Of a stretch of DNA of 64,000 bases, positions 26,091 through 30,988 are shown in pieces. Positions within the stretch are counted from its first letter, which is position 1; every line of letters starts with the position of its first letter. Source of the stretch: Halopiger aswanensis (GTDB lineage: Archaea; Halobacteriota; Halobacteria; Halobacteriales; Natrialbaceae); contig NZ_RAPO01000001.1 in NCBI RefSeq assembly GCF_003610195.1, positions 620,001-684,000 of the forward strand, read 5' to 3'. Below the pieces are notes generated by a model. It saw only the letters and a list, made by a program, of their open reading frames with translations. It searched no databases and had not been told where the DNA came from. The translations under genes and the position numbers were made by a program.

Positions 26091-26270
26091 CTACCCGAGT
26101 TGCTTCAGCGTCTGCAGATCGCGGTCAGTTCGCATGAACTCGGCCATCCGCCGGGAAGCGTGACAGTTCGGACAGTGGAACATATCCGCCGATTCGGGGA
26201 GTTCGCCGGGCGCAGTCTGCCAGTCTTTCGTACATTCTGGACATAATAGTTGCACCGTCGTTTTGTCCAT
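26091..26270 (-). CDS. Small zinc-ribbon protein
   Basis: 59 residues from ATG 26270. Two CxxC knuckles, LLCPECTKDW and FHCPNCHASRR, make a single treble-clef/zinc ribbon; the C-terminus FMRTDRDLQTLKQLG is helical. Resembles small haloarchaeal zinc proteins of unknown function. It lies downstream of tfb on the same strand but past a T-run, so it is probably separately transcribed. Confidence 0.8.
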   Translation of the reverse strand: MDKTTVQLLCPECTKDWQTAPGELPESADMFHCPNCHASRRMAEFMRTDRDLQTLKQLG

Positions 26271-28391: not shown

Positions 28392-28478
28392 CGTCCTCGA
28401 GAACCGCATTCGGCACCGATATGTCCGGTTCGGTAACCGGTCCCAAGAGTTAGTGGCGCGCTCCGCGTGGAGTCACGT

Positions 28479-29579
28479 ATGGCCGACGACCGCCGGGGAC
28501 GGTCCGAGACGCGGTACTGCTCGCACTGCGGGCACTCCCTCGAGCCGCCGATGAACTACTGTCCGAACTGCGGGACGGCGATCGAGCGACGCGAGCGCTC
28601 GTCGGACACCCGCTCGCAGCCGCGACGTCGGACCGAGAACCGCCACCCGTCCGTCGGCGAGTTCTCGCAGACCCGCTCGCACGCCGGCGACCGCTCGAGC
28701 GGACCCACATCCGCGACCCGGCGAGACGCCCGCGACGCTCCATCGTCACCCACTGAATCTTCGGGTCCGAGTCGAGACGTGGACCCGACGGCTCGCAAGC
28801 AACTCGAGGCCCGCATCGCGAGGGCGACCCGGGACGGCTGGGAGCTCGAGCACGACTTCGGCGACCACGCGGTGATGGTCCGGCACACGTTCGGCGATAC
28901 GGACGAACACCTGGTGGTCGCCATGCTGACCGTCTGGTGGACGATGGGACTCGGGAACGTCCTCTACGGTGTCTACCGGTACGTCGAGGACGCCGAGCGG
29001 ATGGTGCTGCGCGCCGGCCCGCCCGAAAACCCGGAGACGAAAGAACAGTCCTCACACCTGCTCGAGCGCGCGACCGCTGCGGTCTGCTGGACCGCCGGTG
29101 TGATCCTCGCGCTGATCGGACTCCAACTATCAGTAACGTCGGCGCTCGGACTCGGACTCCTCGCGCTCGCGTTCGGCTTCATCGCCATGGGGGCAAGCGT
29201 CCTCCCGTCGGTCCGCAGCCGACTCGAGCGCCGCCACTCGCTCGCGACGAACGGCCGTACCCGATCGGTCGAGGAGCGGTCCGTCGTCGCGTACGACCGG
29301 CCCTGCTCGGCGTGTGCCGAGCCGGTCGGCCGCGGTCTCGAGCGGACCTACCGCTCGGAGTTCTGTCTGCTCGGCGTCCCGCTGACGGGATCGGCGGGCC
29401 GGAACTACTACTGCCAGCGGTGTGCGAACGCCGAATTCTCGTCGCACAGCACCGAGACGGGGCACACCGGACGGGGGACTGTCGATGGCGCCTCGAGCGG
29501 CGATGCCTCGAGAGCGGGGCGAAAATCGGAGCCCGAGAGCGGCACCGGGCCGGAGCCGGAACCGGAGCACCTCGACTAA
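28479..29579 (+). CDS. Zinc-ribbon membrane protein
   Basis: 366 residues. N-terminal zinc ribbon RYCSHCGHSLEPPMNYCPNC (residues ~12-31), a long Arg/Ser-rich linker (~35-100), a globular segment around DGWELEHDFGDHAVMVRH, two adjacent membrane helices (~205-240), then a second Cys cluster (CSACAEPVG ... CLLG ... YYCQRCANAEF) and a disordered tail with Pro-Glu repeats. Both ribbons are probably cytoplasmic. Role unknown. Confidence 0.75.
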   Translation: MADDRRGRSETRYCSHCGHSLEPPMNYCPNCGTAIERRERSSDTRSQPRRRTENRHPSVGEFSQTRSHAGDRSSGPTSATRRDARDAPSSPTESSGPSRDVDPTARKQLEARIARATRDGWELEHDFGDHAVMVRHTFGDTDEHLVVAMLTVWWTMGLGNVLYGVYRYVEDAERMVLRAGPPENPETKEQSSHLLERATAAVCWTAGVILALIGLQLSVTSALGLGLLALAFGFIAMGASVLPSVRSRLERRHSLATNGRTRSVEERSVVAYDRPCSACAEPVGRGLERTYRSEFCLLGVPLTGSAGRNYYCQRCANAEFSSHSTETGHTGRGTVDGASSGDASRAGRKSEPESGTGPEPEPEHLD

Positions 29580-29707
29580 TCTAACTATTCGCTCCCCTCG
29601 CAGCCGAATCGATAGCCGAGACTCACGTGCTACAGCCGTGGTATCGGCGCTGTTACTACACCTGTGCTCACAAGCACGTTTAATACCGTGAGCGGGTAGG
29701 AACGCCG

Positions 29708-29824
29708 ATGACGTGTGATGCGTGTGGCGGGATGATCAGCGGCGAACGGATATACAAAGCAACTGAGAGCGACACCAGCGGTCTCGGCGTCTATCATCCG
29801 GACTGCGTTACGGGAACCAGATAG
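29708..29824 (+). CDS. 38-residue zinc-ligand microprotein
   Basis: ATG at 29708, TAG at 29822-29824. Sequence begins MTCDACGGMISGERIYKA and ends GLGVYHPDCVTGTR: a Cys-x2-Cys and a His-x2-Cys pair 20 residues apart, the spacing of a one-zinc LIM/treble-clef-like finger. GTTTAATAC (29678-29686) sits 26 bp upstream as a TATA box, so a leaderless transcript is expected. Codon use matches neighbours. Too short for most automatic callers. Function unknown. Confidence 0.7.
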   Translation: MTCDACGGMISGERIYKATESDTSGLGVYHPDCVTGTR

Positions 29825-29896: not shown

Positions 29897-30988
29897 TTAG
29901 AGGACCCCCATCGCGTCGAGTCGCTCCGGAAGGTACGTCTCGGTCACGAAGTCCAGGCCGTGCGAGGCCAGCGACTGCTGTTCGGACTTCTTCTCGATCT
30001 CGAGTTGCAGTTCGATCTGTTCCTCCCAGTAGTCGGTCTGGAAGCGCGGGTCCTCGAGTTCGCTCTCGAGGGCGTTGATGTCCGAGTCCGAGAGCGGGTC
30101 CGTGGGAAGCTCGTACTCGACGATGTCGGCGGGCTGGATGCCGATGAACTGCGCCTCGGGCGTCGCGAGGTACTCCGAGAGGTGGGCCGACTTGATCGAC
30201 CCGTAGGCGACGGAGCCGTAGATTCGGTACGACCACGGGTCGCCGTCCGTAAAGACGGTGACCGGCAGGTCGAGTTCGTCGTGGAGCCGCTTCGTAATGC
30301 GGCGGGTCGCCCGGGCGGGCTGGCCCTTGAGGTGGACGATCAGCGCGTTGTACTCGTCGTCGAAGCCGTTCTCGACGAGCCGGTCGCGCATACCGCCGGT
30401 CTCCACCGCGAGGATGAAGTCGGCGTCGCAGTCCAGGAAGTCGATCGTGTCCGGGTTGTTCGGGATCTGGTAGCCGCCCTCGCCGACGTCCTTCTGACAG
30501 TGGATCTCCCGTTCGCCGCGGCGGGTCTGCTCGCGCAGGTGCAGCGGGCCCATGATCGTCGCACCCGATTCCTCGGGGCGCATGTGGAAGTCCTCGCGGG
30601 TGACGCCCGAGACGATCTCTAAGTCCTCGACCAGGCTGTTCGATTCGTCCTGACTGCTGAACTGGGCCTCCTCGTTGTCCCAGCTCTCGGAGAGGTAGTA
30701 GAGTTCACGCAGGGTCGACGAGCGGTCCTCCTCGAGCTGTTCGGCGAGGAACTCGATGGTGTAGACGGCCTTCAGGAGCTTTCGGGCGCCCCGGACCGAG
30801 TTAGCCGAGCGGGTCGACTCCCGGTCGCCGTAGACCCAAACCTTCTCGTCTTCGTCGTACTCGATGTTGTTCTTCGTCCGCGTCGGGACGGACATGTGGG
30901 GAATCTCGCCCAGTTCGAACTGGTCGTAGAACTGCGCTGCGAGATCGATCAACTGCTCTCGTGCTTGTTGGTCGTCGTCTGCGCTCAT
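29897..30988 (-). CDS. top6A: DNA topoisomerase VI subunit A
   Basis: 363 residues. DNA-cleaving subunit of the type IIB topoisomerase, Spo11 homolog. [10 protein letters not shown] contains the active-site Tyr in the CAP domain; the Toprim domain has [12 protein letters not shown] (Glu) and [14 protein letters not shown] (DxD). Full length, closely following subunit B (1-bp gap), matching the conserved B-A order. Confidence 0.96.

Follow-up and report, generated by a model that had tools for sequence, protein, structure and literature searches.

The window analysed here, a 64,000-nucleotide stretch of the Halopiger aswanensis genome, contains a 38-codon open reading frame that stands alone in a 317-bp gap between two larger genes. 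On one side lies a zinc-ribbon membrane-type gene (28467-29579, plus strand), and on the other the 3' end of top6A (29897-30988, minus strand), which presumably encodes topoisomerase VI subunit A, a name given from its position beside top6B and from general knowledge. The identity of top6B itself was confirmed by NCBIfam. The product of the ORF at 29708-29824 (plus strand) is the 38-aa protein MTCDACGGMISGERIYKATESDTSGLGVYHPDCVTGTR, whose putative zinc ligands are C3, C6, H30 and C33, arranged as C3-x2-C6 and H30-x2-C33. The features of the microgene are as follows:

29708..29824, plus strand: coding sequence of the microprotein, ATG to TAG, 38 codons, assigned from homologues and codon-level selection
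29647..29687, plus strand: conserved upstream block (-61 to -21) with an operator-like element and the TATA box, delimited by column information
29679..29685, plus strand: TATA box TTTAATA, its centre 26 nt 5' of the ATG, at leaderless spacing and conserved in the alignment
29652..29671, strand not applicable: imperfect palindrome with the family consensus GTTACTAC-N4-GTAGTCAC, assigned from symmetry and a genome scan

The product of the zinc-ribbon gene is a membrane-type protein of 370 aa; its zinc ribbon is N-terminal, a CxxC...CxxC module lies at the C-terminus, and the gene adjoins top6A in several relatives, as judged by DNA similarity. We considered descent of the microprotein from this neighbour and rejected it, as a profile comparison gave a probability of 12 over 12 columns and showed no relation. 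In two relatives (L072 and L080) a short stretch resembling the top6A 3' end is repeated in tandem in the intergenic DNA about 200 bp past that end, with about two extra copies each. A second small zinc protein is encoded in the window at 26091-26270 (minus strand); it has 59 residues with the motifs CPEC...CPNC and matches Pfam DUF7836 with 104 bits against a cut-off of 26.7.

Homologues and coding evidence

The microprotein and the 59-aa protein are the only two small ORFs with zinc-type motifs in the window. Markov shuffles contained none in each of 20 replicates, which excludes chance as the source of the microprotein ORF. An earlier note on this DNA had proposed a homologue search with the peptide as a check, and such a search yielded clear homologues in other haloarchaeal genomes. 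A profile built on 12 homologues after a tblastn-style search of 125 Natrialbaceae genomes detected the microprotein at 16 places in 14 of them (E 0.01 or better). In an order-wide sample of 392 genomes, the confident homologues all fell within Natrialbaceae. Three marginal matches outside this family (E 0.0015-0.0097) were without the full C-C-H-C pattern and were not accepted as homologues; one of them resembles, we presume, an AN1-type finger. Weak matches with E values of 0.06-1 for which loci had been extracted (L015-L030) were dropped as chance or as portions of larger proteins.

The ATG is found at the same position in 14 of the 16 copies, and the Cys-x2-Cys and His-x2-Cys pairs that the earlier note had pointed out (C3/C6 and H30/C33) are kept with all four ligands in 13 of them. 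The exceptions are L042, in which Cys3 is lost, L043, in which His is changed to Arg, and L045, which is frameshifted after about 19 residues; judging from their sequences, these three copies look decayed. One plasmid copy (L035) has all ligands present and is without both the operator element and the ATG. We also considered a viral or phage origin of the microgene and rejected it, as none of the searches gave a useful match. Exact-pattern scans of IMG/VR gave no match to the microprotein, tblastn against phages, with a Haloterrigena homologue rather than the window protein as the query, gave chance-level matches only, PHROGs contained no match better than E 0.017, and the fold matches for the microprotein in BFVD all had E > 0.7.

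Codon-position diversity and dN/dS were calculated for 14 full-frame rows, with L042 and L045 excluded. Diversity at codon positions 1, 2 and 3 was 0.26, 0.27 and 0.45, respectively, and the third-position excess was matched by none of 10,000 permutations. The median dN/dS (NG86) was 0.26 for the 77 of 91 pairs that were computable, with values below 0.5 in 74 of these 77. The coding frame is open in 14 of 14 rows, whereas the other two sense frames are interrupted by stops in 14 and 13 of the 14 rows, and intact copies differ in length by whole codons. The pair within the window's genus is an exception that runs counter to the purifying-selection reading, with a dN/dS of 0.96 arising from nine replacement and two silent codon changes.

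This pair, together with the very short length of the ORF and the missing annotation of the plasmid copies, could be taken to mean that the ORF is spurious or part of a non-coding conserved element. The codon-phase signal and the openness of the sense frame rule out a spurious ORF, the in-frame length changes of intact copies speak in the same direction, and we give this explanation almost no weight. An antisense ORF (29630-29797) was likewise rejected; its frame r0 is open over the CDS in 11 of 14 rows, and both the codon phase and the protein conservation are those of the sense frame. The microprotein gene is real and under purifying selection. The earlier suggestion that a genuine small gene of zinc type, with a promoter of its own, lies here is thereby upheld by the homologues, the selection, the codon periodicity, the kept ATG and the kept promoter block.

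Genomic locations of the copies

Neighbouring genes were compared around all 16 copies, and the copies were assigned to 11 locations. Two copies of the window's genus share one locus, five copies of genus g9 share another, and the other nine are separate. Three copies are carried by named plasmids, of Natrinema sp. SYSU A 869, Haloterrigena sp. KLK7 and Natrinema salinisoli, and no annotated feature lies beneath them in the PLSDB gene table, which is incomplete. Empty sites were also found. At the top6A locus, L073 and L074 have the same zinc-ribbon neighbour with no microgene between it and top6A; at the g9 locus, genome G022 has repeats 146 bp apart without the microgene, and G023 has repeats 462 bp apart. 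The gene occurs at unrelated loci, usually with its own upstream element. From these location patterns the promoter and the ORF, about 175 bp together, appear to move between loci as one unit; no transfer mechanism for the microgene was found.

The composition of the gene was compared with that of its surroundings. The GC3 of the microgene is 0.63, whereas 395 windows of 38 codons taken from five neighbouring genes average 0.89, and only 2 of the 395 are as low. The earlier note had described the codon use as normal, which does not hold for this atypical GC3, and the atypical GC3 suggests a lateral origin of the microgene.

Two further observations were made around the copies. In the Haloterrigena group, the gap that contains the microgene also has two to four repeats TTTAAGTRCYTCTGGTYACAAGGTGAAGMTACGA (L038:9654-10384; also L034, L041, L109 and L113). 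These repeats are 112-146 bp apart where there is no insertion, and they are located upstream of a gene whose 271-aa product matched neither Pfam nor NCBIfam. They resemble tandem promoters or small-RNA units; a search of Rfam gave no family in the window and none at these repeats. Two of the plasmid copies, one operator-less and one frameshifted, are located within about 6 kb of trehalase/GH15-type genes and of a gene for a copper-binding protein (L107:8001-16099 and L108:1-8001), on opposite sides in L107 and L108. This copper-binding protein is a four-helix-bundle protein.

Upstream element and predicted fold

Across unrelated loci, conservation upstream of the gene sets in abruptly near -61 and continues through about -21, over about 40 bp. 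In an alignment of 10 representative copies (one L034 base was set aside, and L035 and L042 were left out), each column of the stretch -57..-31 carried about 1 bit of information, compared with 0.22 bit in -150..-76. As judged from the aligned sequences, the microgene appears to have a real promoter of its own with a conserved block. The promoter that the earlier note had claimed stood up to this comparison: the TATA box TTTAATA (29679-29685) is conserved between copies at its leaderless spacing, and so is the block from -61 to -21 between loci that are unrelated.

The window copy of the palindrome is GTTACTACACCTGTGCTCAC, with 5 of 8 arm positions symmetric. This placement is the most symmetric one in the block, and its symmetry was equalled by 5 of 500 column shuffles; arm symmetry is 4 of 8 in L040 and L044, two rows judged by eye. 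A 23-bp pattern of the element, allowing up to three mismatches, was found at 8 sites in 7 of the 125 genomes, all of them 57 bp before a microgene copy, and the reversed-pattern control gave one match. Since the pattern was derived from these copies, its matches to them are partly circular, and the informative part of the scan is the absence of the site elsewhere. More degenerate sites would escape the three-mismatch pattern, and before the remaining microgene copies the element has diverged past this limit. A looser palindrome pattern indicated no wider regulon in the window's genome, with 5 places at two mismatches against 3 for the reversed control; the sole place with one mismatch is the site before the microgene.

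The AlphaFold2 model, built from 14 aligned members, has a mean pLDDT of 78.7 and a pTM of 0.47. It contains a beta-hairpin (residues 15-18 and 26-29) and a helix (residues 31-34) beside both ligand pairs. The succession of a CxxC turn, a hairpin and H30/C33 at the helix is what we take to be the treble-clef order, and the predicted fold would be a minimal treble clef with a single putative zinc site. Excerpts of PMC11241148 state that AlphaFold2 can give zinc-finger folds whether or not the ligands are present. Structural alignment of the model gave weak matches (Z 3.8 at most) to archaeal ribosomal proteins including L24e, PARP1 fingers, p62 ZZ and LIM, all of them zinc modules whose binding partner is RNA, DNA or protein. 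A profile search of PDB sequences returned no significant match (E 0.14 or more), with a LIM module among the best at E 0.35. When 14 members were scanned, no match had an E better than 0.018 in Pfam or better than 0.03 in NCBIfam; the sole Pfam match of the window microprotein scored 13 bits against a cut-off of 24.

The net charge is -2 for the window microprotein and ranges from -4 to +3 in the other four-ligand copies. The family is near-neutral, and the acidic halophilic composition that had been claimed for it was not confirmed. Among five neighbouring proteins, the charge per 100 aa is -10 to -12 in three and -5.2 and -0.5 in the others. A near-neutral charge beside mostly strongly acidic neighbours fits nucleic-acid binding.

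Possible functions and known zinc finger proteins

By analogy with Brz of Halobacterium salinarum, our preferred reading, to which we assign a probability of about 0.45, is that the microprotein is a regulator with a single finger, similar to Brz, that governs its own promoter and travels with its own control site. According to this model, an accessory stand-alone gene would encode a 35-38 residue single-zinc C2HC treble-clef protein and would be transcribed as a leaderless message from its own TATA promoter, with the imperfect palindrome just upstream. At unrelated chromosome and megaplasmid sites, Natrialbaceae would have gained the promoter and ORF (about 175 bp), which in some of them would have been lost or have decayed. 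As a regulator of the Brz type, the protein would bind nucleic acid, namely the palindrome before its own gene, probably as a dimer or together with a partner. It would set its own level by this binding and would also act on host or plasmid promoters. We infer zinc binding, DNA binding, autoregulation and further targets. Autoregulation is suggested by the combination of an operator-like element private to the gene and neighbours that are not conserved: since the neighbours change, the microprotein is the one factor certain to travel with the site. Against autoregulation stand the imperfection of the palindrome and the L035 copy, which keeps the ligands without the operator, and a host activator could be what binds the palindrome.

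The main rival to the Brz-like reading takes up this last point. The single-zinc microprotein may be an adaptor that binds protein or RNA, for instance in stress or in plasmid-host interaction, and the upstream element the site of a host-encoded activator; we regard this as a serious possibility, at somewhat under even odds. The element lies directly upstream of the TATA box, which is a usual position for archaeal activators, and the right half of the palindrome is apparently better conserved than the left. Treble clefs bind proteins and RNA too, and the weak fold matches include LIM, ZZ and ribosomal proteins. Mutants in Haloferax zinc-finger u-proteins show diverse phenotypes, according to excerpts of PMC6562870. 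The scan of the 125 genomes speaks against a host activator, however, because with the site absent elsewhere at up to three mismatches, a host regulator would serve only this accessory gene or use more degenerate sites. A different possibility is that recombinases or insertion elements move the promoter-plus-ORF unit of about 175 bp as a minimal selfish or passenger cassette, with a protein that matters mainly to the element, e.g. in copy control or addiction. Such a cassette would be consistent with the patchy occurrence (14 of 125 genomes), the 11 locations for 16 copies, three of them on named plasmids, the decayed copies, the atypical GC3, the empty sites and the annotation of a recombinase-family gene some 0.3 kb upstream of the L035 copy. 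Nevertheless, neither terminal repeats of a mobile element nor target duplications were recognised by eye around the copies, conservation ends near the stop codon, and the divergence among the copies is too great for recent transposition. Moreover, five g9 species retain the microgene at the same locus, an argument that it is useful to the cell, and we consider a selfish cassette improbable.

In a stronger form of the Brz-like reading, the cassette would plug a new regulator into any locus where it is inserted. A mobile cassette of about 175 bp, in which a 35-38 residue single-zinc factor binds its own private palindrome, would be the smallest regulatory cassette known to us that is complete in itself, although we hold this stronger form to be unlikely. 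Whether one zinc module and a private operator can regulate transcription could be asked with this very small candidate. As the promoter and the ORF go together and nothing else around them is constant, autoregulation can be tested with a short DNA fragment and a synthetic peptide. The comparison also provides evidence that haloarchaeal proteins of fewer than 40 residues can be conserved and selected, though unannotated where checked.

Compared with known treble-clef C2HC modules (PARP-type, the first LIM module and L24e/TRASH-like), the predicted model may share the zinc knuckle, beta-hairpin and short helix; the scores reach no further than a common arrangement would, and no membership is claimed. 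The ligand order of PARP and LIM-1 modules is Cys-Cys-His-Cys, as in the microprotein. Excerpts of Tarasov 2008 (PMC2253796) define small CPxCG-related zinc finger proteins as having fewer than 100 residues, a CPxCG, CPxCx or CxxCG motif and, 7-40 residues away, a further Cys/His pattern with a spacing of two to three residues. The microprotein has 38 residues, the CPxCG-like motif C3-D-A-C6-G7 (CxxCG is present in 15 of 16 copies, L042 being without it) and H30-P-D-C33, 23 residues after C6. Because all three elements of this written definition are present, it is, on sequence grounds, a predicted small CPxCG-related zinc finger protein. The view that small archaeal zinc fingers are unexplored holds in part: no published description of this microprotein family was found in the excerpts of the literature searched, but the class is already defined and studied (PMC2253796, PMC6562870, PMC10716476, PMC11241148).

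The one-domain zinc-finger u-proteins of Haloferax volcanii, such as HVO_0758 and HVO_2142, have fewer than 70 aa and two C(P)XCG motifs, and several proteins of this kind are reported not to bind zinc (PMC6562870 and PMC11241148 for the former, PMC11241148 for the latter). They and the microprotein are alike as stand-alone haloarchaeal proteins of fewer than 70 aa with one predicted zinc site. The stricter Haloferax definition, with its two C(P)XCG motifs, leaves the microprotein outside, as it has one CxxCG motif and an HxxC without Gly. Brz is a small zinc-finger protein required for high bop transcription; two Cys lie close to its N-terminus and a His/Cys pair close to its C-terminus, and the substitutions C11S and H52F strongly impair bop transcription. 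The brz promoter is leaderless, with a TATA box 25 bp upstream, and an imperfect inverted repeat overlaps this promoter (PMC2253796). Brz has at least 52 residues (from H52F), in contrast to the 38 of the microprotein, and the microgene is without a bop neighbour or a fixed adjoining target, its locations varying and including plasmids. By analogy, the two systems would be alike in the order of the ligand pairs, the leaderless start, the TATA box about 25 bp upstream and the imperfect inverted repeat at the promoter.
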